From assembly GCF_000203815.1 (NCBI RefSeq), contig NW_004457695.1, positions 744,001 to 808,000 on the forward strand: a stretch of 64,000 nt of DNA, written 5' to 3'. This DNA comes from Cavenderia fasciculata. Lineage: Eukaryota; Evosea; Eumycetozoa; Acytosteliales; Cavenderiaceae. This document shows positions 6,769 to 50,112 of this stretch, in pieces. A model generated the notes under the pieces. That model was not told the DNA's origin and searched no databases. It worked only from the letters and a program-made list of their open reading frames with translations. The first letter of the stretch is position 1, and each line of letters opens with the position of its first letter. Position numbers and translations under genes: made by a program.

Positions 6769-6861
6769 AATCAATTAACTTAATTATAATCTTTTTTTCG
6801 TCCCCTTGTAGTAGATTTCTTATTTACTTTGCTTTTTCTTTTATATAACTGTAAAAAAGAA

Positions 6862-8369: not shown

Positions 8370-11300
8370 TTAAATTGTATTAATATAATATTGATAATGA
8401 ATATTGATATTATTCAACACAATGGTAATAGGAATTCGATCAAGTGTCGATGAAGGGATATCACATGAAATTAAACCAATTTGAATACTTGTACATACAA
8501 AATCTATCAAAGTTGTCGAATCTTTGATTGTGATTAAATCTGATTCTCTGGTGAATGGATGTGGAATGAGTTGTGATAATTTACCACCTTTTGGAACTGG
8601 TGATTCAATTGACCAATCAAACAAATCTGTTGGAATAATTTGTAGAGATGTGACAGTGTCTTGGCCTAGATCAGGAACCAGGTTGGTGGCTCCATTAGCG
8701 AGGTTGATTGATACCGCTTCTCTTGTTTCAAACTCTGCATAGAGCGTGATTGATTGACCTTGAACCTTGGCAGATCCAATCTTTTCATTCCATCCAATTG
8801 ATTCTAATTTATCTTGATCATAAATACCAATTGGGAGTGATAATTCTTTGCCTTGTTGTGGTTGTACACCCCAGAATCTTGTTGGTGAATATTTAATATT
8901 GGACACAGAGAATACACCTAATCCAATCGTCAAAGGAACAGAGGTTCTTGGTATTGGTAGATTGTTGTTTACCAAATGGACAAGAGGATTATCGAATGAA
9001 GATACTGATACAGTGAAATCAGTATCAGGACGTACTAAAATCGATTCAATGTGTTCATGAATGACAACATCTGTATCACCATATTTAATTTGAACGGTAA
9101 ATGTTGTTGGAAATTGGTACGATGGCAATGCTGATGGAATGATTCCAGTTATTTGATTGTCATCATAAAATTGTAACGTCAATTCCATATTGTAGGTAGA
9201 GGTGTACGATGCGAGGACAACATCACCAGACATTACTTGGATTGATTTTTCAAAAGGTGTCGATGCAATATATGGTGGAATGGTACATTGTACGAATTGT
9301 TGTTCGCCATCGGTACATGTCAATTCAACTTGATCCAATACATATCTGACGGGTGGGTTGGTATAGAGTTGGTAACGATTCGTGATTCCAAAGACACTTC
9401 CAAGGCTTGCCATTGATGTTGGCCATATTGTTGGATCGATGATTTGAACAACAACCTGTGGGTCATTTACAAAAGAGTACGTTTTGAATGGATCTGACGG
9501 ATCGTATCCAAAGGTTTGAATGACTTGGTTGGTTGTTGGGTTGAGGAGCATAACCGTGAGATAAGGAGAGGTTCGGAAAGAAAACATTCCCAATTTATCA
9601 ACACCAGGCCAGACTAGATTGTCAAAGTAAGATGGTGTGAATCTACCATGACCAAGTTTAATAGTGTCATATGGTGGATCGCGGTTCATACTATCGGTGC
9701 GATGCAATGATAGAGCTTCAGTCGAGCACATTGGAATGGGAATGGTAATAACAGAGACTTGGGTTGGGTCGACCACTTGTATTGTTGAAAATGGCATTGA
9801 AATTGTCATCTTTGCAGTTGCACCATTGATCCAGATGGTACTTGTTGTTGCAATGTCAAATGTCATGAGCGAGTACATTTCATAATATACTTTGGTTAAT
9901 GGAGTCGTTCCATCTGGTAGAGTACTTGTCACTATTATTTGATATGAGCTAGGTCCCAAATACAAAATTTCTTCCTCTTCAGGATCCATCAGACCATTCA
10001 CATTGGCATCGATAAATGTTTTGATTTGTAATTGCGTTTTATACTTTATCAATGTATAATCGGTATCAAGAGGGTCTTGAACGGATTGACAATAGGATGG
10101 CAAGTTAAAGGTAACCAATGGATCCAAGATATCGACACCATAATTGATCAATGGATATCTACCGTATTGAAGATTTACTATTTGGCCAACTTGGTTGTGA
10201 GTGATACTACCAATACAACCACTTTGTGTTTTTTCCATGACAGAAATGTCCAAATTGATTAATTGTTCTAATGGGTCGACAAATGTAACTTCAAAATCAT
10301 TGAGTGGGATGATAGTAGAGGCATCACCCATTGAATTTATACTAATTGTATAGCTTCCCAATTCATCACTTGATAGGATATAATATCCATTGTGTGTAGA
10401 AACAATTGTTGTTGTTGGCACAGGTGGTGATGAAGAGGATGAGGAGGATAAGTCAACTTCTGGGATAAAGGTGAGTGATATTTGAAGAGTATTATCTTGG
10501 ATGACACGGTCATTGCTATTATCTTGGTAAAGGTTGTTGGTATCAACGTCATAATAAATTCTACCAATTGCATAATATTTAAATGGCGTTGGAAGAGGAT
10601 CTAATTGGTAAGATACTGAACCAGTTGCTACCAATGATAAGCCGTTCCAATTCATCGTGAGTGATTTTTCAGTTAATGATCCAAACATCTTTGGAGTGTA
10701 GCATGCGACGACCGATTCTTCATTTTGACCATAGGTATCACAAGAGATTGCAACACCATCCAAAAATAGTTGTTGTTGAGGATAGTAGGTTGTTTGAAGA
10801 GTTATCCTTCCTCCACCCGCTGTATTGAGTATCAACATGTTTGGATTAAATACTTCGATAAATGCAATCTTTTGTTGATTTTCCAAGGTATTTATCAATG
10901 CTAATCCTGCGACAGTGGTGATGGTCAAGAGAGTATCATCGATTAAACCAACATGGAGTGAATGAATCGATTCATCAATTGTAACGACGAATGGGAGTGA
11001 AGTGTCAAGACCAATATTGTTGAAATAGGCTCTGTTGAATTGTCCGTATGGTAGATTGAATAGTTGACCATCTTGAGAGGTGATTACAACTGGTTTTCCG
11101 ATGATCACTGGGAATAGTCCAATCTTGACAATACGTAATGGGTCGGTTGGTGGATAAACAAGATTAACAATCTTATTATTGATAAATGGAGGTATGATTT
11201 CATAATAGGTTGGTGATTGAGAGGATGTTGATCCAGCTTGTTCTTGTTGGATAATTGGAATGACGGTAATGATAGAGTTTGAAGGAACATTAACTTTAAT

Positions 11301-14300
11301 ACTATTACCAGTCATCAGATTTGTAAAGAGTTGCATAAATAGCGTATTGGATGGACCAAGTGTTGATTTAATTTCCAATGAATATTGTTGGTAGGTGACA
11401 ACATGTTGATCATTGACATCTTTAATACCATTTGAATTTGAATCTGTAAACAATTCAATATCCAGATCGTAATTGTAACGAATTTCATAGGTGGCAGAGT
11501 TGGGTTCGGTTTTAGCAATGGAACAATAATATGGGAAATCAAATGTACTTTCTATTTCATCTGTTGCTGTCCATCCATATTTTGATATATCAAAGATACC
11601 ATAGTCCAAATATAATTTTTTAACTACTGTAACACCTCTAGTTATTGACCCATAACAACCTTTTTCAGAGTTGGTGTTGGTTGCAATGTTTTGTTGGATA
11701 TTGGCGAGACCAAGTGTATGACCAAACTCTTGAATTGGTGCGTAGAATCCAAGACCTTCGGTGTAAGGATCAATGGAAAGCTTGGCAAGCTGACCATCAC
11801 TAGCCAATGATACGAACGAATAGAAACCATTGTTATCTGTTTGGACAATTTGAATTGGCCCAGCACTTGATCTTACGAGGGAAACTGAAATTCCTTGTCC
11901 TCTTGCAATTTCATCTTGACCATTATTGTAAAGGTTGTCATGATTCTTGTCATTAAAGATAAAACCAGATAGTGTTATCAGTTTTCGTGTTACAATGTCT
12001 TTATGAATATCTAATTGCTGGAATGATATGTTAAAAACATTGGATGGTATGACTGTGTAATCCGTTCGAGGAAGAGTACCAACGGTCAAATGATAATCTC
12101 CATCCTTGATGACTTTTTCAAATTGATAGTCACCATCAGCGTTGGTTTGAGTAGAGTACATGATTTGGCCAGTGGTTGGGTGAACAAGACTGATGCTTAC
12201 ACCTGCAAATGGAATGTCAACCATCGCTTCTGGATGGTAGAGATTGTCAAAATCATTGTCACCAAAGACATAACCAGATAGAGAAACATATTTCTTGATG
12301 TTTATGTTTTCTTGTCGGTTGTCATTGGTCAACTTGATAGTGTGAATCGGTGTAGCGTCATAATGGTCAGTTGGAGCGTCAATGTAAATGGTATAATCTT
12401 GTTGATTGTTTCCATACAGTCCATTAAAACTGTATTGACCACCAGTGTCGGTGAGGATGTCACGATGGATTCCTTGGGGTCCAGACAAATAAACTTTAAC
12501 ATTGCCAATTGGGGTTGTCAATTGACCACCGTCACTGTCAACAAAGACAGTTCCAGAGATTTTCAACAATTTTCTTGCTTTGATATTTTGATGGATATCC
12601 ACAGTCGACGGTGAGAGGATAATGTTGATACCTTGTTGGAATTCGTAATTGGGTGGTGGTGAGTTTACACGAAGTGTGTATACTTGATTGTCGGCTGGAA
12701 GGTGGTCAAACGAATAGGAGCCATCGGCTTGGGTTTGAACGATAAATGAACCTTGTGGACCTCCCAATTTAATATTTAAACCTCCAATACCAAATTCAGA
12801 CTGATCATCAAATATGCCATCTTGATCGATATCATTGAAAACATAACCAGATACGAGTACCAGCTTTCTTGCAGCAAAGTTTTGGTGAATTGTGATACCA
12901 TTGATGCTGGTCAGTTTGACCATGACACTATCCTGTACGAGAGCGTAGCCAGGTGGAGTGTCGGCAACGAGTGGGTATTCGATATTGTTGGCAACCAACG
13001 AGTCAAATGAATAGGATCCATCGGGTTTGGTTTGAACGACATAAAGTGGAGCTCCAGTGATTGGATTCTTTAATGTGACAGAGATATTTCCAAATCCGAC
13101 ATCATATTGTTGGTTGTATTGATTGTCAAAGTTGACATCGTTATAGATGTAACCAGTGACACCAATTAATGTATCGGCTGCAAAGTTTTGTTGAATGACG
13201 GGTACATTCAACTTGATGACATAACTAAGGGATGTAATCCAAAGTCCGACGGGTGGGGCATCGACACGGACAATATAGTTTTGATTGTCACCTGCAATTT
13301 CACCAAATGTATAGCCACCAGATGCATCTGTTTGGACGGTGAATGGACCTTGCGGACCTTCCAAGAATACTTGAATGTTGGCCAATCCAATATCATTTGG
13401 CAACGAGTAGACACCATTCACATCGACGTCGTTAAAGACGACACCAGAGACGACAACCAATTGGGTCAATGCAATATTTCTTTGCTTGTCACCAGTCAGA
13501 ACAAAATTGGTGATTCGTGATGTGTATCCAGCTGGAGCAGCTTCGAGATCAAGTGTGTATGCTTGGCCATCGGCAATTAAATCGGTGAATCTAAAGAAAC
13601 CATTGACATCGGTTTGTACTTGGAATGAACCTTGAGCACCATTCAACTTCACGACCAAACCTTGGCCATAACCAAGTTCATCGGGTGTGTTGAATACATT
13701 ATTAAAGTTTCTATCAATATAGACTGTTCCAGAGACCGACGATGAAACACTACCACCAGTGGTACTACTATCACCAGATGTGATTGCTCCAGAAGAGTCT
13801 CCAGTTGTTTGTTGGTTTGAAACGACCAGTGGGAGGTTCTTCTCAACATTATTAATTAATTTAATGGTGAAACTGTTTGTTGGAGCCGAATAACCGGAGG
13901 GGGTGGGACTGATGTATAGTATGTAATCTCTTTCATCCGCGGGGAGTGGACCAAACGAAAAGAATCCGTTTGCATCGGTTTGTTTTTGTGGTGGTGATTG
14001 AGGACCGCTCAATTGGACTGTTACACCAGACATGACAATATCAGTTGCACTATCGTATACACCATCAGAGTTGACATCGTTGAATACGTATCCAGTAACT
14101 TTAACGGGTGGCTTAACAACTCCTGTTGTGCCTGTTGTTGTGGTTGGTACATAGGTGGTGGTAGGTGAGGATCCACCAGTTGTAGCTCCAATGGTAGCCC
14201 CAACGGTAGCTCCAACGGTAACTCCAACGGTAACTCCAACGGTAACTCCAACAGTAGCTTCAGCTGTCGCTCCAACGGTGGCTCCAACAGTAGCTCCAAC

Positions 14301-17300
14301 GGTGGCTCCAACAGTAGCTCCAACAGTAGCTCCAACAGTCGCTCCAACAGTAGCTTCAGCTGTCGCTCCAACGGTGGCTCCAACAGTAGCTCCAACAGTA
14401 GCTTCAGCTGTGGCACCAACGGTAGCTCCAACAGTAGCTCCAACGGTAGCTTCAGCTGTAGCTCCAACGGTGGCTCCGACGGTGGCTCCAACGGTAGCCT
14501 CAGCTGTGGCGCCAACAGTAGCTCCAACGGTGGCTCCGACGGTGGCACCAACGGTAGCTCCAACGGTAGCTCCAACGGTAGCTCCAGCTGTGGCACCAGC
14601 TGTGGCACCAACAGTAGCTCCAACAGTAGCTCCAACAGTAACGACAGAGGTAACTCCAGAAGTGTTTGAAGATGTCTCTTCACCATTACTATTACTATTA
14701 TCGCTACTCTCTTCACTGCTTTCATCATCCTCATGTTTGAATGTCTTGTCATTATTACTTGTTTGATCTTCATAGGTGACTGTGACTCTTTTGTAACCGC
14801 TAGTCTCTGATGGTGGTATGCTGCATGTAACTTTAGTGTCTGAAACAACAGTTGCTTGGCCGCATGGAACACCTCCAACGGAAACACTGACTTGTCCCTT
14901 GTTTGACAAACCCAGATTGCTACCTCCAATTGTAACGTCATTGCTTTCCTTTTTCTTCCCAGAGGCAGGGCTGACAGAATCTACTTTTGGAGGTTTGAAA
15001 GAGAATTGTTGGTTTTCATTACTCTCGGCATCGCCAAGTTGTTGATTCTTGAGAATGACCTTGATCTTTCTCTTGGCACTTCCACCACCATCCAATGATT
15101 TAATTGTCATCTTGGTGTTTGATGTCATACCAGTGATTCTCGTTTCTTGTCCATCAAACATGGCAACCAACTCGGAGTCATCCTCTACAAAGTTCTCACC
15201 AAAGAGTACAATGTCTTGATCACCCTTGATCTCACCTTGGAGTGATGACGATGATGAAGATGAGCATTGTTCTTGTCCATTCTTGACACAGATAGAATTG
15301 ATTTGTGGTTTGGCATAATAGTTGTATTCGATGTTTTCTTGTTCCGATGTTTGTTCATGATCTTGTTCACCAACTGTTACTTTGACTTGAATGGTTTTCA
15401 CCTTGTCAGATGTTGGTACTCGACATTTGATCAAATCATCTTGACACGATTCAATAACACATTCCTCGGTTGTAGCCGTAGTTTTATCCTTCAAATCAAC
15501 TTTAACATTTTCAACTTTTTCACCAAAATTGATTCCTTGAATATTGATTAATGTATCTTTATCCAATCTTCCTTTCTTTGGATTAATTTCATCAATCTTT
15601 GGTTCTATATAGAAAATTAAAATCTGTTAAAATTATTTTTAAAAATTATACTTTTGTTTTTTAAATTACAATTACATACTGTCATAAGAAAAATAAGTAT
15701 TATCTTTTTCGACTTGTTGAGTACCAACAATAACATTGATTTTATAATCTTTTCCTGTGCCCTTTGGTGTGGTACATTCAACCTTGGTATGATCGATCCA
15801 TTTGATCTTGGAACAATCAACAGCATTGATAGAGACTGTCAAATTGCTTTTATCTTGTTCCTCGTACTTGTCGTTGATTTGTTGTGCATAGACTTGTGGG
15901 ACAAAGTTCTTTCCAGCAATGGTGATCAAATCGCCACCTTTGGCCGGTCCATGATACATTTGATCTTGTGGCGGTTCGTCAAGAGTTGGAGCATCGTAAG
16001 AATACTTCATCTCGGTGATAGATTCCTGACCACCGACAAACAGATATACTTTGATATCCAAACCAAAACCAGCAGGTGTGTCACATTCAATCATCGTCGA
16101 GTTGAACCATTCTAGGTTGTTTACTAAATGCCAACCAATCGATGAATTGCTATAGGTTGGTAGACCTTGGAATTTGATTGGCTCCTCTGGAGCTTCTGGT
16201 TGCAATTCGTTTGGTGGGAAGTTGAGACCTTTGATTGTGAGGTGAGCGCCACCTTGTGTTGGTTTTGTATTGGATTCACCTTCTTCTTGGCTACCACCAT
16301 CATCACCATCTTTTTGGACGATAATCTCGGTGATTGATGGTGGCGTATAGTTGATGATATTGTTTGGGATTTCACCTTGGTTTTCAATACCTCCAAAGAT
16401 GACAGACGAGATTGTCCATCCTTTGCCAACACCAGAACCAATATAGCAGATGAGACACTCGTGATTCTTGTGCGACTCTGCTGTATCTCGAACCCAGTAG
16501 GTTGGATCAAAAGTCGCTGTTCCTTTAACACCACCAGGTGTGTCGGGATCGAAATCGGGATTGGCGGGACCGCTCAACTCTGAATAATCTACATCCATAA
16601 ATGGATCGTCATTACAAAATTGTCCAGCATCGAGACAATCCATCTCACGAATGTATTGGTCATCGGTGGGACTCTTGTACATGACGTATGGTACCTGTTG
16701 AAGTGCCAATCCCATGTCTATACCAACAATCCAAATAAATTCGGTCATGGCAGTTGGACTGGTACTCGAATTGGTGAGGATTTGGAGGACAACTGGAGAG
16801 GCATAGTCGACTGTTTGTGATGATTCTGCTGATTGTCCACCGACTGTAACACTGACAGCATAATCCTTTCCATAGTTATCAGGAGCTACACATTCGATTT
16901 GGGTGTCACTGATCAAAGAAGTAGTTGAGCATTCCTGTGATCCAATATATGCTAACACTTGGTTGGGTGATGAGCCAAAGTGTTGTCCTACAATCGTAAT
17001 GATTGATGGAAAGTTGAGAAAGTCTGTTGGAATGTCATCGAGTGGCGTAATCGACGAGATGGTTGGTGGGAGGAATGCAAGATTGACTGTATTACTAATT
17101 TGTGATCCAACAATGACATAGAGTTGATTGACCAATCCAACACCATTTACTGTGACTTTGATCGAATCTTTGCCATCGGTGAATTCGATAGTATTGACAG
17201 GTACGGGTATTTTGTTGAGGAATACTTGGATATCATCTCGAGTGGATGTTGGTGAGAGCATATTGGTACCTTGTATGGTTATTTGTTGTCCTACCGTTAA

Positions 17301-20300
17301 TAGGCCAGTGTTGGGTGTTGCAAGTTGAATCGTTGGTGCATCATAAATAAGTTGTTGATAAACGGTTGATGGTAATCTTATAATTGGAAGAGTAGCTAAT
17401 GTACTGGTGTAGCTGATAACATGCTTACCAATACCCGTACCTGCGAAGCAACTTAGCAACTCCTCCCCATTGGATTGAGTAACAACAGATTGTATTTGAC
17501 ACGTGTCACTTCCTACATGAATCAATAATCCTCCTTCATTCAGTTTCTTTCCACGCACTTGAATTTGATTTTGAGTGGATCGGGTTGGTGAACTGCTTGG
17601 AGGGATGATTTCCAATACGATTGGACCTGATGGACACTCAGACATGAGTAATTGACTACCAGTGACGAATGAACAGATACGACCTTGATATGATGTGACA
17701 GATACACCTTGGAGATGACTAATCGATAGTAATGGGCTGTCTACAGTACCACCATATGCATTGGTGTCGGTTGCAGCATCTTGTTTGTAGACCAGATACT
17801 TTGTGATCAACTCGATACCGAGTGGAGTGATTGGTGTGTTTTGGCTACCGAATTGGCAGAGTGTTGGATCGTACATACGAAGTTGTTGACGAAGATTGGT
17901 GTCGGTTTGGATCATATCCTTGTACGACTGTGAGAATAGGAATTGTAGAGCACGATTCGACAAGAGACTGTTGGATTCATCCGATGCCCAAACTGACAGT
18001 GTGTCAGAGAGTGAGGCGATAGGGATGACAGAGAGATCGTCATCATGTACACCTTTGGCAAAAAGATACTCTACAAGGGTTGGCGACGCTGGCATGTTTG
18101 GTGGGTTGGCGACAGGCGGTGAGCAAGCCTCATAGATACGATTGAACAACATGATGCTTGGTATCTTTTGTGCTTCTACGTACAATGATTGATGGGTGAG
18201 TGTAGCGACAAGATCAACTGTAAAATCAATCACACCATATTCCACACCCGTCACTGTACAGGTAGATACAGTCTTGAGAATACTAGACAATGGGACGGCA
18301 GAACCACGATTAGTGTCACCGAGTTCACCAGAGTTATCGTTTGATTCGTCGACGAGATCCAACAGGTAGGCAGTTACCCACCCTTCGTTGAACGATGCAT
18401 CGTCGAGAACGTTGTCGTTGACATAATATTCCATGTTGATTATGGGTGTCGATAGTTGACAACTATCGAGAGATTGTCGTTGTGCAACGGTAAGCTGATG
18501 ACCAAAGGTAAGCTCACGTACACGCATCGAGACAACGTTGACCAGACCACGGTACAGAGCTGTCCATGCAGAAGGTGAAACAGATTGCATAGTGGTGGTG
18601 CCGGGTGGAAATAGATTGGTCGCCAGCGTTTGATCGATCGATATGAATTGGTTGTTGTTTAATTTTGAAATTAAAACATTTGAGAATGCCCTAAATACAC
18701 TATCCATACACAGATTAGCAATATCAATAGGTGTATTGGTGATTCCATTGATTGTAGCAATCTTGGATGTCTCGTCAAACGTAACAATCCACTCTGGAGT
18801 GTTGTCAACCAAATCAATCTCGATACTTGTCAATAGTTGTGGGATAAGGTCAATCATCTTTTGTAACGAACGATAGATCAATACGAGATTGTCCTGCACA
18901 ACCGACCCGTCCGACGATGGTTCTGGGAAATACACACCCTTGTAGAGGTGGAGTGGGATAGTGATGGCGTCTTGTGTTTGGAGGGATATGATTCGGAGCT
19001 CCGATGATGATCCGGCATTCTTTAATTTCAACAGTACTGTTTGAGCTCGATTCTGGGCAAATGTGATATAGGCATCGTGATCACTTGTGAATTCAGAAGG
19101 ACCTTCGCCAAGTGCTGCAAGACATTCTTGATCGCATCCCAATGCAAGCATCGCTGTTGGTTGAACAGAGACATAGGTATTTGGCAAGCTGTTGTCAACC
19201 AATGCTCGATAGTACGATACCAAGTGTGATGGAAACGATGGGTTTGATGCTTGACGACTGGTTTCGACCATGATGGGACCGTTGAAACTGATACGATTTT
19301 GGACGGTTGTAACTTGGCTGGCACAGGCATTGGACGTACAAGTGGATGTGATGTATTTAAATGTGGACATGGCCATGTAGGCATGAACCGTCTTTGGAGC
19401 ATTGACAACACAAACAACAGTACCACGAACATTACCATCGGCTGAATTGTCACCGACACAAAAGTAACCAGTCTCTGGCAGCGGTGACTGATCGGTAAAT
19501 GCAATACTACCAGCATCCATCTCTGACGAGAATTGAATCGATTTTGTTGGCAATATTGACCTTGTCAATCCCAAAGGCAACCACGTTTCAACAACTCCCT
19601 TTTGATTATACAACGTATTTAACATCTAGAAAAATAAATAAATAAATAAATGTATTAGTTATATTTTTTGTTTGTTTGTTTGTTTGTTTGTTTGTTTGTT
19701 TGACACTTACAGGAGTAGTAATTGATAAAGATGATAATTGAGGTTGTGACCAAATTGCTGATAGACGGTCGGCCGAATAGAATCGATAAGAGGTCGTTGT
19801 AGGATCGGTATTGGTGACGACACTTGGGTTATATGATGGGGTTGACAGTGAAAACAGTGGTCGAAGCTGTACCTTGTTTGGTGCGTTTGGATTGGTTGCA
19901 TAGATGTTTGGATGCGCAGCTACGAGGGCGTCTTTGATTTGCAGAAAGTTTGTAAACGACGTGCAAATGAACTGGTGGCCGCGACTAACATCGTAGTGCT
20001 TGAGTGTGGAAAGCGTGACGTAGTCGTTGGGCATCCACAGGTCTGGGTCGGTTGATGGACGTCTGACCTCGGTGGGTACCGATCGGATTGGCACAGGAAA
20101 GCCTTCCATCGAGTGTTTCAAGTGGAAACCTGGTCGAGAGGAAGTCGTTTCAAAGACAACCAACCCTTTTGCAATTCCGTCCTTGTAAAAGGCCGTCGAG
20201 CTTGTCGAAGGTGCAACCTCGCCGACTGAGTCGTCGTCACTGTTGTAGTATGGTTTGTCATTGTAGGCGATAAATGTTTTAAACGGGCTGGCTGTTTGTT

Positions 20301-20772
20301 GTACGAGCGGTGCTAGGTGTACGCTAAAGTCACTGCCACTCGTCTTGACACCTGTCGCATCAAAGTAGACGTAGTTTTTCGAACCTGGTAGTTTTCTCAC
20401 TACAAACCATTCGACATTCTGATTGTATCCATTTAAACAATCTACATAGAATTAAGTTGAATTGAGATATAAATAAATATATATATTATATAAAGTAATC
20501 AATAAATATATAATGTATATATCGATCGTAAATAACTTAGACAAGAGATCGCGTGGTGATGTTCAATTCGAGGTCAAATTTTTTTTTTTTTTTTTTTTTA
20601 TTCATTGCACCAAGTATGAACTTTTACTTTACTTACTTTGCGAAGAGACAGTATCGATGTGATAATAGAGTAAAAGAATTAAAAGAATAGAGAATGTCAG
20701 CAAGGATGGTGGACGTCGTTGCAGGGACTGCTTTTTACAGCTACCTCGACCACTACTACTACCACTTGTCAT
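8370..20772 (-). CDS. Giant secreted protein: DNase II-like domain (catalytic His lost) + IPT/TIG repeats + SdrD/CnaB-like repeats
   Basis: Four exons (20637-20772, 19711-20441, 15680-19625, 8370-15604) give about 4015 residues. Exon 1 supplies a basic stretch and a hydrophobic signal/anchor (SLLTFSILLILLLYYHI, about 25-41). Residue 46 onward reads as deoxyribonuclease II: VEWFVVRKLPGSKNYVYFD matches the DNase II start, FIAYNDKPYY matches its YNDQPP box, and FCVGDNSADGNVRG matches its C-terminal box. The two catalytic HxK motifs are changed: GIAKG (Ile135 where His is expected) and DAGS (about 326-329, where DHSK is expected). An unassigned region follows, then about nine IPT/TIG domains (about 950-1890), a VGAT low-complexity stalk (about 1925-2085) and at least eight SdrD/CnaB-like repeats (about 2100-2920) with Asp/Asn loops such as FNDVNSDGVYD. 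The C-terminal 1100 residues carry degenerate repeats and two Cys/Gly modules (GCYGSI, GCIGSI). No C-terminal membrane segment is seen. The neighbouring divergent giant gene is a paralog. Confidence 0.85.
14170..14640 (-). repeat. Coding minisatellite, 12-base unit encoding VGAT
   Basis: About 470 bases made almost entirely of a 12-base unit (on the plus strand gctccaacagta and close variants). On the minus strand it encodes about 40 Val-Gly-Ala-Thr units, with interspersed Ala-Glu-Ala-Thr and a few Val-Gly-Val-Thr. It lies between the last IPT/TIG domain and the first SdrD/CnaB-like repeat of the giant minus-strand gene. It probably forms an extended spacer or O-glycosylated stalk. Unit variants (GAT, EAT, GVT) recur in a higher-order pattern, so length may vary between strains. 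Confidence 0.9.
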
Positions 20773-21524
20773 TATTCCTTCACTTCCTTCCTTCTTTCTT
20801 TCGTATTTGTATTTGTTTATTTGTTTCTACTAAGGGGCGTATGTACTGTCTTTGGAATCAAAATAGAGAGAGACGAAAAATAAAAGTAACTAACCTGACC
20901 TACTCTTCTTTCTTTTTCAACCTCGCCAGGTACCTGATAGGATCTACACCCTATTTGTGCGCGATCAATCAACCAAACCAAACATACGTGGTCAAGAGTC
21001 TTTCTTTATCCAAACTTGATGTGGCACTCCTCTGCTCAATGGTATTATAAACTATTGGGTTATTAAAAAGTCAGATATCAAGCCAAACACTGAACAGAGA
21101 AGCTTCTCGCAAACAAAAACTAAAATCGCTTACGTGGTCATGGTTGCTTTTTTTTTGCTTCTTTAGGCGACGACGCCCTTTTGTAAAAATGTGGAGGTCC
21201 TCCGTCTGGGTGCCCCATCAGAGCCAAGTAAGCTGGGCAACAACCTCGACCACCTAAATTGCGCTCGCTTGGAAGTAGATATTTTCTTTGCATTGTTGGT
21301 ATTTATCTGTCAAAAACTGCGAAACAGGCGAAAAGCAGATCAACAAAGACCAAAGTATGGAAAAAGAACACCTATTGTTTTTTTTTTTTAAAACTTAACA
21401 AGTATCCTCTGGTGGTTTATTTTCTCTTCTTTTTTCACTACCACCACGGTACCGTTTATCATAGATCATATATATATATATAATTAATTAAAAAAATATT
21501 TATAATAGTTTTGAAAAAAAAAAG
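20773..21524. promoter_or_regulatory. Shared divergent upstream region of the two giant genes
   Basis: These 752 bases separate the start codons of two head-to-head giant paralogs, so both promoters must lie here. The edge nearest the plus-strand gene is AT-rich with TATATATA-like runs (21465-21482) and an A-run just before its ATG at 21525, as is usual for dictyostelid starts. The centre, about 21160-21330, is clearly less AT-rich than other spacers and has T-rich runs before and after it. I recognise no gene or named RNA in it. Short frames open here have no family features. Confidence 0.4.
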
Positions 21525-24500
21525 ATGATAATCATCAAACAACCAACGACCAATGGGTTGATTGGAGGTGTCAATGGCCATCACTATGGCGATCACCATT
21601 CAATCAAACCCGTACGTTGGAATGTTGTGATGTTAAGTCATATGGTAATATTATTATTATTTTTGACAACTATTGCACATGCAACAGACCCTCCTCGACC
21701 ACAACCCACTTTGGAGCCATCAGATTGCTCATTCTATGCTGCGAGTGGAGGTATTCTCAAAGTGACCCCTCCGGCCACCGATTTCATTCTGCCGCCGATT
21801 GCAGAGATTTGGACAGCCGACGGATCGACCGCCATCCCCACCAAGACTCTTTTGGCACGGTCACCCACCTCGCCTCAAGCCGATGGCAGCTACTACTTTA
21901 TCGTTCCACCAGTCATCAACGAACAACGAGATGGCGACGGAGATGGCGACGTAGATGACGACGATCAAACAGCCTATAGCAGCCAAGGGTCCACCAAAAA
22001 AGGGTAGAGTCGAAGCAGAAGTCCAAAGTAAGAGACATCAATCAGGTCTCTTGAAACCAACCGTAACAATTGGAGTTAAAGATTCGGCCCTCATAGTTTT
22101 ACTTCCAAGAATAACTTGTACAGTTGAATATCAAATTAGTATGTATAACATTTAAAAGAACAAACAAACAAACAAACAATTCAATCAATTAAATTAAATC
22201 AATTCATAAATGAAATTAAATTTTTTTTTTTTTTTTTTTTCTAGATCCATTTTTAAATCCACTTGACATTGCAATTTATCCTACCAATATTGTAGCTGGT
22301 AGTGTAGCAGTACCTTTGTTTATTCGTGATTCGACAACTAATATTCTACCAACATACCTTGCCAACGGCATCAAGCTGAATAATAGAGACCAAGGCCGAA
22401 TTGGTATTGCCGACGTTGCATGTCTCCTTACACTCGACGAAAATCAACAAGCTAATCCAGCCAACACTTGTTTCCTCAAACAGTTGACTGCTGACAACTA
22501 CCCCCGTCTCCCTCTTTCATTCACTCCGATCATCCAGTATCGTTCCTCGTTTGTCCCTGTATCCGATCCAAACAAATACGGTCCCTCATATGGATCATCT
22601 GATTTACTTGTCACCTATCATGGTAAGATAATTATTTTATTCATTCATAATTATATAATTGATTTATTGGTTTGTAGTATTAATTTATTTTTAAATCTAT
22701 TTTTTTTATTTTGTTATATATATATATAGAGCCACAGATTGATATGATCAAACCAAGATTAATGTCACAAGGAACCGATCATGAAATCGAGATTACTGGG
22801 TTAAACTTTTACGCACAAGTTCCAAAGGATGAAATTGAATACACCTTTCGATCGGTGGTGACTGTCAAGTTCTTTGGAGTCATGTCTGATGATGACACGT
22901 TCCTCGAGTGTACTAATATTCGAGTTGAAACTCCAACTCTGATTAAATGTACTATTCCATCTGCCTCTATCGTACTTGCCAATCCTGGTGACGAACAAGA
23001 CTATAGCCGTGTGGTAGTAACCATCGATCAACGATCATTCAATCTTGAAATCGATCAAGTCATTGATGATCAAACCATAGATATTTTGTTAAAAGTATTT
23101 TGTAAGTACTATGTTTTAAAACAAAAATATGACATTTTATTTATTTAATTTATATTTTCAAAAATAGATCCTGAACATAAAGAAAACAAACCAAACGAGA
23201 TTGTTCGAGGAGGTACTCAAAAAGTCACATTTGATGGAAAGTTCTTCATTGCCCCGTCAAAGGTTGAAATTGCAGGCGTCGAATGTTTGATTATCAAAGC
23301 CGATGAGAACCAAGTGGAATGTACGACAAATGAACTGCCTCCACTTGCAATCGGAGACAATAACGTTGAAGCACCAGTATCAATTACTGTCGATGGTTTA
23401 GTCATTCAACAACAACAAATTATTTATTATTGTATGTAGTAATATAAATAATATTGATGATAATTTATTTCAAATTATCTTAACAGCTTATTCCCACTGC
23501 ATTCGAATTTAACCGTCCTCCATTTTTCTTCTTCTTCTTCTTTAAATTTATCTTTAGATCCTACAATAAGAATTCAAGTTCAAGATGAAGACGATGAAGA
23601 TGGTGATGGTGATACCAATGAGCCATTGCCATCACTTAAGCCATCATTTGCATTGCAAAAATTATCACCAACCAAACATTCAATTGTTACCGTGACACTG
23701 TATGGAGATAAATTGAAATGGGTGACTGCCATCTCGCTGGTGGGTATGAATCCACCAAAGATTATCCCAGTGGAGGGAGCACCTCGTCTTTTGGACGATT
23801 CCCTGGTCTTTGAGGCCAATTCGAACCTACTAGTAGGCGACACCATCGTTCCCATACCAATCCAACCAAGAATCCTCACCACACTCTCGAGAGAAGTGGT
23901 TGACCTTCGATTCGAGAAACCAGTTGTCAAAATCCATCAAGACACTCCTTTTAGATCCTACGTCAGAGATGAACACACCATCAAAGTATTGTTATCCACC
24001 AGCGTTGCCCAAGATACTTTCAAGGATTACAAGGTTACTTTCCATTTGGCAGACAAACAACTCGAGATTGTCAAAAAGTACGATGACGGCACCACATTTG
24101 ATGTCAAGATCCCTCAATACTCGATCGACACTATTCCCCCAAGCAACGTGCAGCCATCTACATTCGAGTTGGTTCTCAACAACGATTACAAATATAAAGT
24201 ATTGGATGTTAATGGAAATGAAGTTAAATATTCTCATTTTGGTATGTATAATAGAGAATAATAATAATAATAATAATGAACAATTAAAATATAATTAAAT
24301 ATTAACTTCATTTTCTCTCTTTGGTAGTCCCTAAAATTGATAGTGTTGTCATTGAAAATAGTATCACTGTGAGAGGTAGTGATCTCGATGAAATTGGAAC
24401 ACACGAGTCTCTTTTAAAAGTAAATGATAAGATATACAGTAAGGCCGAGTGTCCTATATTCACCAAAGAGCAAATCACCTGTGAACCAGTACCAGATGAT

Positions 24501-27500
24501 CTACCTACTTTGTTTGACGTATCGGTGATTGTCAAAACATCTCCATCCAAAAAAACAGAGTTTTTATTTATCGGCACACCACAATTCCCACAGGGTCGTG
24601 CAGTTTCAATCCAACCACGTGGATCATCGAGATACGTTCAACAAGAAATTTTTATTACCTATCGCTCTGCAACAGCAGCACCTCCCATTCCAATTGTCAC
24701 AATGCCATTGCAATCAAGCACATTGACGTTGCCATGTACTCTTTATTCAACAACGGGTGCAGCTCCATCATTTATGATCACTCTAAAATGTGATAAACCA
24801 AGAAACCAAGATCCTAGTCCAGCCGGATCTGCCAGAGGATCAAGAATTTCATTCAACAACGTTCAGCAAGACATTTGGTTCAACAACTATGGTCTATCAT
24901 GTCTCGCTGCTCCCGATGAAACTGGTACCAATCTTCCAGCAGATTGGTGGTTCTCTTACAAGTATGTCTATAAAAAAACAACAAAATATAATACACGGAT
25001 CCGTGGCTTTATTCTAACATTTTTTTATTTATTTTAAAGATTGTCAGGGCAAGTAAACAATGATTATATGTATGCTGATGCAAAAAACTCGACATTCAAA
25101 CATAAATTACATCTTGTTCCTCTTGGAACGCCAGGTCGTACGTTGAGTGCACTCGCAGCAACATACCATCAACACACCTATGCCCAGGTTGCCACCGATC
25201 CCACAAAAATTGCGTTCATATTCATAAATGATCAACAGGGTTACAGATTCCCGCCGGGATACGTAGACTCCTGCGGCAATGTAAAGGCGGGTGGTGGAGG
25301 TAGAGTTGACATTCCGACCCTTGTCGCACATGGACACGTCAAAGGATTTATTTTCTACGAAGTGGATGGAGCGGGCAATATAGGAAAGGGTATTCATGTC
25401 ATTCATTCCAACCCAATCTTTCCATCGTACGATGCTCCATTCGTTGGCACTTGCCCAGACCCCGATAAACCTCCAAAGTACGAACAACAACCAACTAGCC
25501 CGATCACATACAATTCCATCGATGATCCCGTCAAATGGCTCGGAAACAACGAAATGGCACAACACTTTTTCTGTCGTGAGTTTCAAGGTGCACCTGAATT
25601 GGATAAAATAGCTCAGCATTCGATGCGTGTCGATGCATCGATTGTGCCAGGCTACAAAACACACACGACCGTGTATCAATCCCTTCCTTATCTCGGACAA
25701 TTTATTACCTCGTACACTGAAGCATTGGCCAATGCGAATGGCCGTGGTCCAACCGCTCAAGAGTTAATTCAAGATGTAAGCCAAGCATGGAAATGAATGC
25801 CAATAGATGATGATGATATTTGGTATTAATACTTTTTTTACCTTTTTTTTTAGGGATGTACGAATGAATTACTACAAGGTGACACACGTCAGCCAAATCC
25901 AACAAACATTTGCTTTTTTACATCAGGTGTCAATGTAGGTGCAAATGGCAATTCGGGTTGGCTCTTTGCGAAAACATCGGTCAACTACAAATATAAAAAA
26001 CCCCGAAAACCAACCAAAAAAAACACCTCTCCGTTCACAGTGTTTGCTTTGGGTCTCAAACTCGCTACCGAATACAATTACAATCGTGGTCTGCTTAATA
26101 CACTACCGACCCGACTACCCCAAGAGGCTACTCTCAGGGTTGCCAGTTTAAAAGATGTTCCAACTGGCTGTGATGTCAGCAGTGATCCTCTAACACAGCA
26201 ATGTTTTTCTTTGGACGGCATGGATATGTGGTCGTTGATCTCCAATCAATTTGGCCAGAAGTTGTTTGTCCAGACCTATCTCAAAGCGTTCAACATCATG
26301 TTGCCTGTGCCACACATTGCAGAGGTGGCATACCACAGCTATCCAGGTGACTCCTCTCTGGTACCAGGTGGTGGTGACATTGATTTTGTTCAATACTACA
26401 ACAACGATCACTCCAAACTGGCCTACAGCATGGTTCCCACCTCGAGAGATCCGAGGGATGGCTCGGACTGGTTTTGTTTTGGTGATGCCAATCGCCACAA
26501 CGGCCAGGGTGAGCGTGGATCGGGTGCTTTCTGTTTCGTAAACGCAGAATTGGTCGATCAATTCCATCGCTTTTTGAGTTCTTACAAGACTCTTGGTCCG
26601 TCGACCATCCCAACCGCGATCGGCCTCCCTGCAGGTGCCACACGTAATAGTGGAGACTATTCTGTGTACGCAATCGCTCATCAAAAGCTCTCGTTAAACT
26701 ATAATGTTCCTGGCAAGACGAAACCACAGAGTTTCGAAACCGACTATCCACAAGAGGTCGAACGAACAATGCATATAAAACGACCAATTGTCATCCAATC
26801 CAATGATTGGGTCCGTTCAGTGTCTGTCATTGCAAGAGAGTCGTTGACCTATGACAATGGCAACAACTTTAACATCTATGACATTGCATACAAACCTCGC
26901 TACACTTTTACGCCTGGAATCAACTATGCTATCAAATATCATTTATTCAGAGAAGACTCTCCACCAAACACCCTCGAACGAAGGTACACCAATATTGTTG
27001 GCCAAACTGGTTGGCCAGGATGGTCACTTGATTGGTCAACCAAAGATTTTAGAAGAAATCAAGATATATTGTTCTACTATCTCTCAAATGATACACAAGT
27101 GGCGTCTGTTTGTACGTTAACTTTAACGCTTGCTTGCAGCGAGGAACAAGATTATCGACAAACATCTCTTGATGCTCACAATGCTGTCAATGTGCCATTC
27201 CCACCAGCACCAACTGGAGAGGCACTCGATGTGAGTACCAACCTTCGTACATTCACGCTCAGCAATGCAGCCTTGCCAGATTATAATCCCGACCTCAAAA
27301 TCATCCAAATCCACAAACGTCTGCAAGACTACAGCACACAAACACAGCTCGTCAAACCATTCAACATGCCAATCGGAAGAATCAACTATTTCGTTGCCGA
27401 GAGTCTCCAATCGTTGCCAGCACAATGTCACCATGCATCGTGTTACCTCCAAGCACAAAAAGTGATTCTACTCAAGTTAAAGGATTTCTCAATTGCCACT

Positions 27501-30500
27501 TCTGTCAACAGACCTTGTCAAGACGAACAGATCTATTTGGTGACGCTAGCCTATTTCCACAACAGAACAGAGTTTATTCCAGATGCAAAACAAGTTGTCA
27601 CTTACGATAATGACCCAAGCAAGATAACATGGGCAAATGGTGTATTGTTGGCAATATCAAAATTGGCTCGACAAACAATCGATTCTGCTCATTTGGCTAC
27701 AACGTTTGATAGTTGTTTCCCATTACCAATTCTTACTCCTGGAACTACAACATCATTGGATCTTAATAATTATAAAGAGTATGTTATGAAAGAAATAGAG
27801 ATTCTCTAATATTTAATATTTTTACTAATATTTAATTACCGCGTTTTTATATATTATTTTCTATAGAGCAGACCCAATGACACCATTTGAAACAGCAACT
27901 ACCAGACAATTATTCCTTCGAAGTGCAGTTGCCACTTGGCAATTATTAACCACTGGTCTGGTTCCACTTCAAACAATGATGGATTCATTGATTGCCATAA
28001 CACCAACCATCGTACCAGAGGCACAAGTAGAGTCGATGATTGATTTCTTTGAAAAGAAGATTCCAGAGGCTTACCGTAAACCAGAAAATCACGACTTGCT
28101 CAAAGCACTTGGTTTGGTCAAAACTCCTCCTCCTCCAATCGTCGTTGATGATAGTAGTAGTGGTGGTAGTGGTAGTGATAGCGATGGCAATGGTGGAATG
28201 GCATCACGAAATAGTTTGCCGATAATTACACCATCTCCATCAACAACTCCAACCGATTTGCCAAATGCACTCCAACAATTGATTACAACTTTGAAGCAAC
28301 AATATCCATCGTTTGATGTTGCCTCAATCATTCAACAAATCGATAGAAATGAAGAAGTTGATGAAAACACTAACAATGTTGCTATTCAGCGTGCATTTAC
28401 CAGGTGGATCGACATCAACAATCAAAATCAAGCCATTACAACGATATTCAAAAAGTCGTTGACCACATCCACCACTCTATCGGCCATATCATTTATCGAT
28501 TCCTTCAACTCTGACCAATTCCAATTATCGATTGATATGTGCACATCAACTGACAACAATCAGCAACAGAAAATCACATTTGTTTGCTCATTATCCTCTG
28601 TCGTACAAATCACCAACCTTCTTGTCCAACTTCAATCTCATCCAACAACTTTGAAACAATTGTATGGTGATTTCCAACTATTCTTTGTTCCATCTGACGA
28701 TTTTGTTGTTGGTGACGAGGTTGGAAGTGGAATGGCGATTGCAACAGTGAATGGTAAACTATGTGATATTACAATGACAAACAAGCAATCATTTGATGAT
28801 TTATCTCTTCTTACGACGATCTGTCAAGAGGTTGGTCCAATCATCCAATCAATCACTCCAAACAGAGGAACAACAAATGGAGGATACACCTTGACCATCA
28901 ATGCCATCCATATCAATAGTGATACTCGCATATTTGTTGGTGACAGGTTATGTACTCTTCCTACAGTGTTGTCTCCAACACAAATGACTTGTCTTGTACC
29001 AGCTTCATCTGGAGGAATCAATCTACAGGTTATTGCCACAAATAATCTTGCAACAACTGTTACCCCCCCTTCAACGATAATCCAAGACAATATTGTATTA
29101 TTCTCATACGATCAACCAATTATTACGACTCTACCAACGATAAAACCAAACCAACCATTTATTATCAGTGGTAGTAATTTTGGAACATTATTAAATGCAT
29201 CGGTCAGGATTGGACAATTTGATTGTCGAATCATTTCAGTTGGTCATAACCAAATTTCATGTCAATCACCAATCAACATTGGAAAGGATAGAACCATCAC
29301 CATCAAAATCAATGGACAATCATCAATCGTAAACCAACAAAGCTTGTCATCTGCCTCTTACGAACCACCACAAATCACATCAATATTACCATCCGATATT
29401 CTGGTTGATGATATTGTGGTGATCTCTGGAAAGGGTTTTGGTGATGATGATTACAACAATGTAATTGCACCTTTTGTAACGATTGGTGACAGACAATGTG
29501 ACATTCTCGACTATTCAAGTGACACTATTACCATTAGCACACCCAGAGGTATCTCTCAAAACAAAGCATTGATTGTCAACGCACAAGGACAAGTAGCAAG
29601 TACCACTGTCAACTATGCAGCTCCATACCTCCAATACCAGAGTATGTCCACAACAGACACACCTGGAGGGATGATCAGATTGGAAGGTGATTCTTGGGGA
29701 ACTTCAAAACATGACATTGACTTTATTCGATTGAATGGACAATCCATGCAATGCTCACCTTTTGACATGTTTGTCGAATGTATGATTCCACCCGGTATCG
29801 GTACCGATCTCCCCATCGATGCATCAATCGGATCACAAGCAATGACCACCTTCCAAATCATTGCCAAACTTTCATACAACGCACCATCTATCCATAGTAT
29901 TCAAGTGGCAAATAGTCAATCTATTGTAATCACCGGCAAGAATATGGTGCCAAATGGCATTTCTCCACTGTCATCGTCTGTGCTTCTGAAACTGTCAAGT
30001 GGCGTCATTCCCTGTCCAACGCCAATATTCCGAACCGACTATTGGATTGATTGCAATGATATTCAATCAATGCCATCGATACAATCTATTCAATTGAATA
30101 TTGGTGGTCAATTATCAAATGAATTCAGATTCAACCTACAATCACTTCAAGGTGAAATATTCATTGATGACAACCAAGACAATATCCATTCGTATGGAGA
30201 ATCATTATTTATCTCGTCGTCGGTTACATTGACACTAGACAATGGAGTATCTCCTCTTCTAACAACAACAACATCTGATGGAAGATATTCATTCATCGGT
30301 ATGGCTGCTGGAACCTATACCTTGAGCGCAATGTCGCTCGATGGCAATGTCTATTTCCCAATATCAACAATCAGAAACATTGTCATCTTGGAAAGTTCTG
30401 TCAAGGTAGTTGATATTGCAACGATTGTCAAAAACACCAAAGGATGTTTTGGAAAGATTGTTGACAGCACCAACAACAAAGAGATGTTTGTTCAATATGG

Positions 30501-33500
30501 TGTAACCAATATTGCCAACTATGGATGGTGTACAACATGCACGACAACATATCAACTACCAGAGGGTTGTTCATCCACACTCAATCAAAATACGTTGACC
30601 ATCGATTATTCATTGTCACGCACTCTTCAATTCTATATGGACAAAAACTTGAATTTAATCCAAAATACTGGTGAATCACCTTTACAAACTTTGCTCTCAT
30701 CGATTACAATCAGAGTTGAACCATTGCTTGGATCATTTAATCCTTGGGAAGCAGCAACTATTTCAACTCTACCAATTAAATGTCCAAAATCATGTTTGGT
30801 CAAAATCATTTCCTCAGACAACAACATGGTATCGATTAGAAATAATATCTTGTTGGATGAAACGACAACACCGATCACTCTTCTTGGATTCTATAGCACT
30901 CAAGATTTCTCGAGAAAAGTAGTCTTTACATATGTACAACTTGCCGAAACAATGACACTTCCAATTGGAAAATTCATGTTTGCCACGCCAAGAGCACTCG
31001 CAAAAGTTAGCATTCCAATCAATACCAAGGTATTACTCCAACAATCAACATTTTTATCATCGGTTGGTGATAATTTGATCACCACGCCCAATCAATCACC
31101 AACGATGATTGAAGTCATGGACACTAGTGATTTATTGTCTCTATTTGGAAGCAATCTTGCTCTTGAAGGTGGCAATACAGTTACAGTGACAAACGACTAT
31201 GGATACGTTATGCCACAATTTCTCATCTCTGGTCTGCCATTCACCTGTACGGGCAACACCGCTGACAAAAAAATGACTTGTACATCACCCAAGATAACAT
31301 CACCTGGAGACAAAATACTACGAATGAAATGGAATGGAATGGACCTTTATGCAAGCCGACAGATGTCCATTCCTCAATACACCACTACGATAACCTTTTA
31401 TAATGACCTAAACAAAAACAACGTTAAAGACATTCTAGAAGTGGTTCTTGTGCCAGGAATCGTAGTGACTTTAGGATCAGGACAATCATTTGTCTCATCG
31501 TCGACTGGACAAATTACAATCCAAATATCGCACCTCACATCAATGATTGTCACACAACCATCCAACAAAATCGTCCCGTTGGCCCAGTACCAATTGTCGC
31601 CAACATCGCCTCAAACACTTAATATTGCCGTCAATGATATTACAACCGATCCGTTATTGACAGGCTGTGTCACATTCTTTTCCGCTGGCGACAAAAAACT
31701 ATATGTCCAAGGTGGATATACAGACCTTGCACCGTATGGCTTTTGTGATAAATCGAAACAACCGCCTTGTGCCAATGTAGTGACGTCGTATAACTACATA
31801 AACACATGCTTGTTTTATGGAGACAACACTCTTTGGATTGTAAAGAAATCGACAGTATCGATCCAATTCTACCAAGATCAATACATCACTGGCGTGCCAA
31901 CGGGTGTCCTTCCCCCCGCTGCCACAATGTCTCAATACACAATCAGTTTCGACGTCCAGGCCTACCCTGCCGAAGGACAGCCACGTTGGCAATACTCAGC
32001 GACTGTTCCTGCAAGTGGCTTGGCCATACTCAACGTACCAATTGGAACCACCAACATTGTTATCCAAGAAGCACCATCGAGCTACAGCATACTCAACAAT
32101 TTTGGCGTCACAACAACGCTCACAAACTTGAATGTCGTAAAGAATGTTGGACTCTTTACTCCACGAGTAGCAGGCACTGTTCTCCGATTCTACAGTCTTG
32201 CAAACCAACTCGGTGAAAAGCTCTCACTCCCACCAGGCAAACACGGCTCAACAGTGCTTGGAAATCTTGGATGGACTGACAAAACTCGATCGTTTGATGC
32301 ACCTACAACCACCAAAGTTTACATTTCAACCAGCGGTTACAACAGCGGTGTCGTGACAACCCTCGCGACCAACGGAATAGTTAACACTGGTGCAATCGGG
32401 TCAAAGCAAATAGAAGTTGCAATCGCATCACATTTTGACTCGCTCGACTTGCCAATCCAAGGTAAAACGATACAATTCACAAACCCGTACCACAGTAAAT
32501 CAGTGTCGTTGTTTATTGGTGCAGTCAAGCTTAGATGTACCGACGGTCTGTTGTGCACGATCCCATCGTTTTTCGGAAGTGTCAAAATGTCCGTTGTACT
32601 GTTACAAGACAGTGGCAGCATGGGCGAAGCACTTTACCAAACCTACACAGTCAGCTACGTCAAAAGATTCCCACTGCCAACCGCATCGTCATCCTACCTC
32701 GACAAGGACACATCCAATAATGCCATTCCAAACGCTCAACAATTGACCTACCCAAAAGGAGCCACAACCTATCCCTATACCCGTTTCGGCATGAAAACAA
32801 TTGGTACGGCAAATTACATGATGGCAACAGTCACCGATAAGTCTGGTGTTGATACAAAAGTATATGAATGGTTGTTAAATAATTTACAAGGCACCTTTTC
32901 AATCCGGTTGGATTCATATGGTAGTTTATGTGCACAATTCTCACCAGCAGCAAATGGAGGAGCATATCTTTATTGTATCAACACGGCCGAACTCAGTCCC
33001 AAATATCTTCAAGTGGTAGATGATGGTTTGGTGATACAAAAGGCAAATGGAGACATTACATGGACACGTCTGGTACAACAAACCTTTTCATCATTCACCA
33101 GTGGACCTTTGCATCCACTTGCCAGTGGATTGAAATATCTCGACTGTCAAGACACATCGAGAAACAAACTTAATGTTGACGATTTCCTTTCGTCTGGACA
33201 CAAGATCATTTATTATACCAATACCGGAAAACTTACCGTACTTGACCAAACACCTCAAACTTTGTTCCAATTCAATCACGGTGGAGCTGTGCAGAATACT
33301 GCCTTTCTTGAAATTGGTACTGATGGGAATGTATGCTCCTATTTTTCGGCTTCTACTGGAGATTGTCTTTATACCCATTACTTGGCAGCAAGATATGTTG
33401 TTGCATCACCACCAAATTTCCTTTATTCAACAACCGATCAAACAGCGCTTTTGGTGCTTGATGTCTATGGTAATGTAGTTCGAATGGTCACAGGAGATTT

Positions 33501-34502
33501 GACTCTCCCAAATCGAATGCTTCCAGGAACATATCTATCGACTGGCGACATTATGAAACCGGGTCAGTTTATTACCAACGGTCAACATTATCTTTACTTG
33601 TCGTCCAGTGCTCTTACCTATTACAAAAGTACTCCATTCCACATTGTCACAAAGTTGGTCCAAAAAACCATTGCCTGTAGTAACTGTGTGCTAGAGGTTA
33701 CCACCACAGGCTACAAACTCACTGAAGGTGCCGTTGTTAAATATAGCGTAACCGCATCATCATCATTTAAATATGTGACAATGCCGTATGTTAAGAGTGG
33801 TGGTGCAAGCACAAACGTACCCATCAACGATATGGGTATTGCGTTTGCCAATGAAGTTGGTGCCGTACTAAATGATCCTGCTGGTTCAGTCCTTTCTTTC
33901 TTTGAACAACACCCTCTAATGGAACCAACAACCACCATTCAAGGTAGACTCTACATTGACACAAACAACAATTACATCTATGACAACAATGAACTCCCTC
34001 CATCTTCTTCTTCGGCTTCAATAACATTGAATGGATTAACCATCCAACTCAACTCCAAGGGAATGTTTAAAACTCTAGATGCATTAACTGGAGATAATGT
34101 TCTGACATTCAATAACATTCCAACAAATTATTACACTCCAATCCAAACTCTCAAAATTCTCGACACCAGAAATGGATTCAAACAAGATTTCCCTCTTTAT
34201 CCTAAAGGTATGAAATTAAGATCAGAAACCAAGTTGGTTAATTTTTTAAAAACAAAATGTATTAATTCTTTTCTTTTCTAATTATTTATTTATTTCCTGT
34301 AGAAACAAATGTATGCTTTGGCTATTTACTATCAAATCAAAATCGATTATATGCTCAAAGTGGTCAAACCAAGCTGTCAGTATTTGGTTGGTGTCAATCT
34401 GGTCAACAATGTGCATATCCAATCACCTCTACTTCAAACATTCCTTCAACATGTTCAATTAAATATGATACAGCAAATGTCATGACAATCACAAAATTAT
34501 AA
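21525..34502 (+). CDS. Giant secreted DNase II protein with IPT/TIG, SdrD/CnaB-like and lectin-like regions
   Basis: My exons are 21525-21950, 22003-22138, 22245-22622, 22730-23101, 23168-23431, 23558-24241, 24328-24961, 25040-25775, 25854-27778, 27867-34207 and 34303-34502, giving about 4031 residues. A signal peptide is clear (VILLLFLTTIAHA, then TDPPRP). About five IPT/TIG-like domains (about 310-850) precede a full DNase II domain starting near residue 940. It has DWWFSYKL split by an intron after the Lys, GRTLSALAATY, FIFINDQQG, first catalytic motif GHVKG (His1064-Lys1066), second catalytic motif DHSK (His1396-Lys1398) and FCFGDANRHNGQGERG. Then come an unassigned region shared with the divergent paralog, five IPT/TIG domains (about 2175-2605), CnaB-like units, three Cys/Gly modules (GCFGKI, GCVTFF, VCFGYL) and a bulb-lectin-like stretch (about 3480-3780). 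The frame changes by one base between 21950 and 22003. A 52-base intron fits but is not AT-rich; an extra base in the AAAAAAGGG run near 22000 is an alternative. Confidence 0.87.
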
Positions 34503-34550
34503 TAATAAACAAATTCAAATACCTACACTTATCCATTTAAATAAAGATCT

Positions 34551-34591
<41 letters not shown>

Positions 34592-34637: not shown

Positions 34638-34690
34638 AATTATTATTTTTTTCATTTCTTTTTTGCTTTGTTGTTTAACAGATAAAAGAA

Positions 34691-50080: not shown

Positions 50081-50112
<32 letters not shown>

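Follow-up and report, generated by a model that had tools for sequence, protein, structure and literature searches.

Giant TIG proteins of Cavenderia fasciculata carry DNase II domains in recurrent gene pairs, one member with and one without the HxK motifs

We analysed a window of 64,000 nucleotides from Cavenderia fasciculata (contig NW_004457695.1, positions 744,001 to 808,000), in which two giant genes lie head-to-head on opposite strands. The plus-strand gene, which we call g-type (TIG first), encodes a signal, a TIG domain, a DNase II domain, an apparently orphan linker domain, three further TIG stretches, an SdrD_B-like stretch, and a C-terminal region without a transmembrane segment. 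Its minus-strand partner, which we call m-type (DNase II first), encodes a signal peptide, a pseudo-DNase II domain, a linker domain, TIG domains, a Gly/Ala/Val/Thr repeat, and CnaB-like repeats. This locus is referred to below as C14, and the coordinates of its features are collected in the table.

Table. Features of the two giant genes in the window, in window coordinates
Feature	Position	Strand	Basis or remark
m-type partner giant	8370..20772	-	start 20772; 3' end set at stop of last long frame
Best of three CnaB-like (CarboxypepD_reg) stretches of m	12081..12212	-	PF13620, 75.7 bits for all three
m linker domain between DNase II and TIG domains	17625-19364	-	
m DNase II domain, directly behind the signal, approximate bounds	19400..20441	-	PF03265, E=2.5e-22 on N-terminal exon
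Head-to-head intergenic region between g and m	20773..21524	.	753 bp ATG to ATG
g-type giant gene	21525..34502	+	ATG 21525, stop ending 34502
g exons after exon 1	22245-22622, 22730-23101, 23168-23431, 23558-24241, 24328-24961, 25040-25775, 25854-27778, 27867-34207, 34303-34502	+	GT..AG introns
IPT/TIG domain upstream of DNase II	23168..23431	+	PF01833, 40.2 bits, residues 258-332 of N-terminal piece, above Pfam cut-off
g DNase II domain, two introns inside, bounds by eye	~24870..26592	+	PF03265 match, genome scan, 20-row alignment
First HxK motif, H-V-K of GHVKG	25335..25343	+	aligned to HxK of stand-alone DNase II
Second HxK motif, H-S-K of DHSKL	26409..26417	+	aligned to HxK of stand-alone DNase II
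FCFGDANRHNG box	26472..26504	+	its C, G, D, R invariant across 9 g rows
g linker ("post") domain	26595..28836	+	part 26595-27806 aligned with g paralogues: 6 rows, mean column identity 34%
Best of three downstream IPT/TIG stretches	28837..29049	+	PF01833, 80.2 bits for all three together
SdrD_B-like stretch, below Pfam cut-off	30157..30336	+	PF17210, 28.2 bits against cut-off 29.7

Counted from the exon at 22245, the g protein has 3843 residues, with 160 and about 44 more upstream. The resulting length of about 4000 agrees with the roughly 4031 residues proposed in an initial sequence-only reading of this DNA. Exon 1 contains a frame change near 22004 (window ~21998-22010), which would be accounted for by a tiny intron or a single-base difference. 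That reading also placed the DNase II domain between IPT/TIG domains, and we find one before it and three stretches after it. The SdrD/CnaB repeats that it assigned to the same protein are reduced to a single sub-threshold SdrD_B stretch; the clear CnaB-like repeats, as we read the CarboxypepD_reg matches, sit in the minus-strand neighbour. Its central observation of an intact DNase II domain embedded in a TIG giant thus stands without those repeats, and it had missed both the gene family and the head-to-head neighbour whose DNase II domain is dead.

Several other features were observed in the window. At the end of, or just beyond, the last g exon lies a fragment similar to the 3' portion of eukaryotic 18S rRNA (34480-34660, plus strand). 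It matches Rfam RF01960 at 25.4 bits, below the gathering score of 50 (E=1.8e-5), and a DNA search of the assembly with 34480-34640 returned only the self-match. Similar short genes flank the giants on both sides (5351-6274, 6790-7749, and 34679-35560, plus strand). They share a stretch MNSNKVTF-TIFRMVY near their starts, and ankyrin repeats were present in both of the two that were scanned (of three). Near the C2 pair described below lies a frame with a similar motif (NRTEGCT). Finally, one open frame at 49328-51631 (plus strand) combines an RNase_T/DnaQ-type exonuclease domain with a glyoxalase domain, possibly two fused genes. An FNIP repeat and the style of the genes are in keeping with a dictyostelid.

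The spliced g segment matched the Pfam DNase_II profile (PF03265) in two stretches, with E=9.6e-26 and 91.2 bits against a cut-off of 23. The domain had been assigned to 24885-26560 on sequence alone, limits that are correct to within about 30 bases. At the genome level the same profile recovered two pieces, at window positions 25059-25721 and 26217-26591, and gave 0 matches on 14 control genomes. The raw translation of 24885-26560 contains stops because two introns cut the segment (24962-25039 and 25776-25853, both GT..AG); the frame is open after splicing.

The GHVKG, DHSKL, and FCFGDANRHNG landmarks are present in the order that the initial reading gave. In DNase II, two HKD-type (HxK) motifs form one catalytic centre, according to the available text of PMC4148230. 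The GHVKG and DHSKL of the window gene align with AHSKG and DHSKW of a stand-alone canonical DNase II gene of the same genome (C7:1359541; 299 bits, profile positions 2-326), whose own two HxK motifs align in turn to 5i3e_A, a solved chain titled "Putative deoxyribonuclease-2" (E 6e-24). The window domain shares only 22.7% identity with this stand-alone enzyme, and a search of solved structures with it gave nothing at E 0.1. In the m partner, the aligned motif positions read GIAKG and DAGSI, so that both HxK motifs are lost. Framework positions nevertheless persist among m proteins: the cysteines, a tryptophan, the N of the YND box, HS..FP, and the C..D of the last box are invariant in 8 m rows, a count that leaves out m_C5. 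Judged by these residues, the g head should be catalytically competent and the m head should not.

Because the window gene is split by introns and exon 1 changes frame, we considered whether the fusion could be an annotation illusion, with the DNase II and repeat parts belonging to separate genes. An uninterrupted frame spans the TIG domain and the N-terminal DNase II part in all five paralogues scanned (C2, C9, C7, C13a, and C5), with the DNase_II part of the C13a frame scoring 18.6 bits, under the cut-off of 23. Separate transcripts are therefore unlikely at the N-terminal TIG-DNase II junction, and the same frames lead us to reject a stand-alone DNase II wrongly fused to its neighbour. Further downstream, window exon 25854-27778 carries the C-terminal half of DNase II together with linker sequence, and the remainder of the linker shares exon 27867-34207 with TIG. 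A single minus-strand frame of 1317 residues holds the end of the m DNase II domain (placed by alignment), the linker, and four TIG stretches. With these frames and exons in place, we regard an annotation illusion as highly improbable.

The linkers appear to be orphan domains without a known family, and we leave them as such. The m members have in common an EGW-TA-LWDL-D-like stretch. Against solved structures the best matches were at chance level (E 0.24 for m and 0.64 for g); against Pfam the best m match had E 0.083, in one of seven m members, and NCBIfam gave none. A peptidase-like nature of the linker found no support in these chance-level matches. Homology between the g and m linkers is weak (hhalign probability 35%, P 4e-4), and we do not rely on it.

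Of the 33 exon-level DNase_II matches that the genome scan yielded (31.0 Mb, 21 contigs), 26 lie by position in the stand-alone gene or in g or m genes; seven more, three of them on C12 and the rest singly on C1, C16, C18, and C21, are outside the g/m count. At least ten g genes (C14, C2, C7, two at C9, three at C13, C17, and C5) and at least nine m genes (C14, C2, C7, C9, three at C13, C17, and C5) were found. The C5 g gene was missed by the scan and emerged when the flank of the C5 m gene was inspected for a partner.

Both HxK motifs are intact in nine of the ten g genes, as in the stand-alone gene, and in none of the nine m genes. Intact g motifs read GHVKG, AHLKG, GHSKG, or GHTKG at the first position and DHSK, DHAK, or SHVK at the second. 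Over 9 g rows with a mean pairwise identity of 34%, 41 of the 229 columns without gaps do not vary, and all four HxK residues are among them. The motifs are also fixed among g copies with identities of 57-82% in the HxK-bearing parts compared. Among the m genes, m_C2 retains the histidine of the second motif (DHARL), with neither motif intact. The C5 g gene has lost both histidines (GQGKG; LYSKQ), so that at least one pair can dispense with catalysis.

All nine m genes adjoin a g gene, and no further long frame was seen in between. Eight pairs are head-to-head (C14, C2, C7, C9, C5, and three at C13) and one is head-to-tail (C17); for the second g gene at C9 (C9b), an m partner was not found. 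ATG-to-ATG gaps are 753 bp at C14, 1303 at C2, 822 at C9, 1449 at C5, and 554, 631, and 873 at C13, the last two being differences of printed coordinates. This range of 554-1449 bp covers seven of the eight head-to-head pairs, the start of the C7 m gene not having been located. That a g gene so regularly adjoins m suggests that the two are expressed jointly and share a task. Six intergenic regions, with C7 entered at approximate ends, have short words in common more often than shuffled sequences do (8-mers in four regions, 64 versus 9.1 expected). These words are AT-rich only, and none with at least 4 G/C was common to at least five of the six regions, so no promoter motif was recognised.

The pairing appears to be old. 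The m clade had support of 100/99 in both tree runs, and the g clade had 98/97 with 9 rows and 89/91 once the long-branched C5 row brought the number to 10. C13 and C14 were sisters in both clades in the first tree (100/97 and 100/100) and in the second (99/98 and 100/99), as were C9 and C17 (first tree, g 88/87 and m 92/91; second tree, g 87/75 and m 99/97). Recurrence of the same two sister pairs in both clades suggests that the g-m pair is ancient and co-inherited. Distance matrices of g and m were correlated in the first tree (r 0.62; 14 of 720 permutations as high) and in the second over seven loci (r 0.51; 120 of 5040), and weakly in the second over six loci (r 0.39; 61 of 720). Co-inheritance of g and m is thus supported by the shared branching of the domain trees and moderately by the distances.

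More recent copies allowed a comparison of selection on the two partners. At C13:371001-451000 the g-m pair is triplicated in tandem with a spacing of about 24 kb; two of the three m copies there are split over two frames, possibly through errors or decay. Over the C13 triplicate and the C9 duplicate together, all 11 copy comparisons gave dN/dS below 1 (m, 0.32-0.51; g, 0.42-0.85). Among the C13 copies, the C-terminal half of the g DNase II domain is 57-68% identical (dN 0.22-0.32). The compared N-terminal half of m is nearly identical (92-94%; dN 0.03-0.05). Gene conversion among the C13 m copies is likely, since dS also differs between g and m. The second HxK is retained in all three C13 g copies despite the faster divergence of g.

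These data bear on the view that g is a plain matrix-tethered digestive nuclease that alone matters, degrading DNA of food bacteria, self DNA, or extracellular-trap DNA, with m a structural matrix protein sharing its promoter. Intact HxK motifs in nine of ten g genes would suit such an enzyme, and DNA nets occur in social amoebae according to the available text of PMC4773522. Chance adjacency would not, however, explain why nine of nine m genes keep a g neighbour across diverged loci, nor why m retains a DNase II framework with dN/dS of 0.32-0.51 in the C13 copies, and we consider this view unlikely.

In a second view, g and m would meet as ligand and receptor in self/non-self recognition or adhesion, in the manner of tgrB1/tgrC1, and the DNase II fold would chiefly be a binding head. 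Multicopy divergent pairs of TIG proteins are also described for tgrB1/C1 (available text of PMC12324515), the C13 array shows faster change in g than in m (dN 0.14-0.32 versus 0.03-0.05), and the C5 g gene lacks its histidines. Yet the catalytic residues kept in nine of ten g genes would be needless for a mere binding head, and the window pair lacks a C-terminal membrane segment; a recognition pair of this kind seems to us quite improbable.

The absence of that segment was read from a simple hydropathy scan, not a trained predictor, which detected an N-terminal hydrophobic stretch in both window proteins and a C-terminal one in neither; each protein also has two internal stretches barely above the scan threshold. 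Signal-like starts were read by eye for g and m at C2, C9, C5, C13, and C17 and for g at C7. Secretion to the matrix or into vesicles is consequently likelier than a membrane-anchored enzyme. The surface- or matrix-tethered nuclease first envisaged for this gene is therefore kept in its matrix form, and surface tethering fits less well. Any tethering could run through TIG or CnaB-like stalks.

Taken together, g and m probably form a secreted nuclease/pseudonuclease pair that works as a unit in the extracellular matrix. The plus-strand gene would supply the enzyme in an ancient unit of two genes, its intact DNase II domain held between TIG domains and using phospholipase-D-type HxK chemistry, cation-independent and probably acid-favouring. 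Its partner would be an equally large secreted TIG/CnaB-like protein whose tip is a DNase II domain with the framework residues but not the catalytic ones. Both would be made together from one bidirectional control region, secreted, and brought into contact in the extracellular matrix or on cells. There, g would cut DNA, and m may bind DNA or the g domain itself and so position or restrain it. Co-expression, a physical complex, and activity are what we infer from pairing and motif content, and the joint task could be trimming of matrix DNA, digestion of bacterial or trap DNA, or recognition. A stronger version, which we hold only tentatively, is an obligate head-to-head pair of giant secreted TIG proteins kept together through many duplications, whose active and dead DNase II heads would act on one another, or on the same DNA, as a DNA-processing or recognition layer of the amoeba extracellular matrix. 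Pairs could also persist through shared promoters alone, the proteins never touching.

Parts of this picture have precedents in the literature. The term "deoxyribonuclease II activity" is enriched among lineage-specific dictyostelid expansions in the available text of PMC8535579, and TIG and colossin expansions in dictyostelids are reported in that of PMC4334915. Among the matches listed for open-licence PubMed Central, we found no paper on a DNase II-TIG fusion or on enzyme/pseudoenzyme DNase II pairs; automatic domain annotation may already list the fusion. Protein-database searches gave no DNase II-TIG relative among 7156 scored proteins with the DNase II domain, three TIG-only proteins and no DNase II-TIG protein among 8000 scored with a TIG-DNase II profile, and four distant TIG proteins and no DNase II-TIG protein among 7989 scored with a minus-strand exon. 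The databases searched seem to be without dictyostelids, as the window's own proteins were absent from the matches, and these negatives are uninformative on other species.

DNase II is generally regarded as a small housekeeping enzyme, lysosomal or secreted. In this genome it forms part of giant adhesion-type proteins and has been duplicated into an enzyme/pseudoenzyme pair. The closest known systems to the g domain presumably include human DNase II, alongside the solved chain 5i3e_A/5unb, which we take to be the Burkholderia thailandensis enzyme, and the stand-alone gene at C7:1359541. With these, g shares the profile match, both HxK motifs, the HS..FP and C-x-GD boxes, conserved cysteines, and a secretory-type start. 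It differs from them in being about ten times longer, in its position between TIG domains, and in its pairing with a pseudoenzyme.

The gene layout resembles that of tgrB1/tgrC1 of Dictyostelium, which the available text of PMC12324515 and PMC3188802 describes as multicopy extracellular TIG proteins encoded by paired genes diverging from one promoter. The likeness lies in the TIG domains and the eight head-to-head pairs, pairing here being read from gene layout with the gaps given above for seven of them. A DNase II domain is not mentioned for tgr proteins in that text, where they are transmembrane, unlike the window pair as judged by the hydropathy scan. One m_C9 frame has a weak Ig_TgrO1 match (16.6 bits, under the cut-off of 27.9). 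Colossins and other dictyostelid CnaB proteins are built from bacterial-type CnaB repeats (available text of PMC4334915 and PMC3188802), again with no mention there of DNase II. Clear repeats of a similar kind (CarboxypepD_reg) occur in the m partner, and g has only its sub-threshold SdrD_B stretch.

Trichinella offers a parallel for motif loss. Its lineage expansion of DNase II-like proteins lies nearly all without HKD/HxK motifs (PMC4148230 and PMC10249883, available text), and the likeness to the present family is that of a lineage expansion with motif loss; TIG or CnaB domains and active/inactive gene pairs are not described in that text. Should g and m act as a unit, they would offer a direct way to test the role of pseudo-DNase II domains, a question that arises for Trichinella as well, and would suggest means by which dictyostelids could control extracellular DNA or use DNase II folds for recognition.
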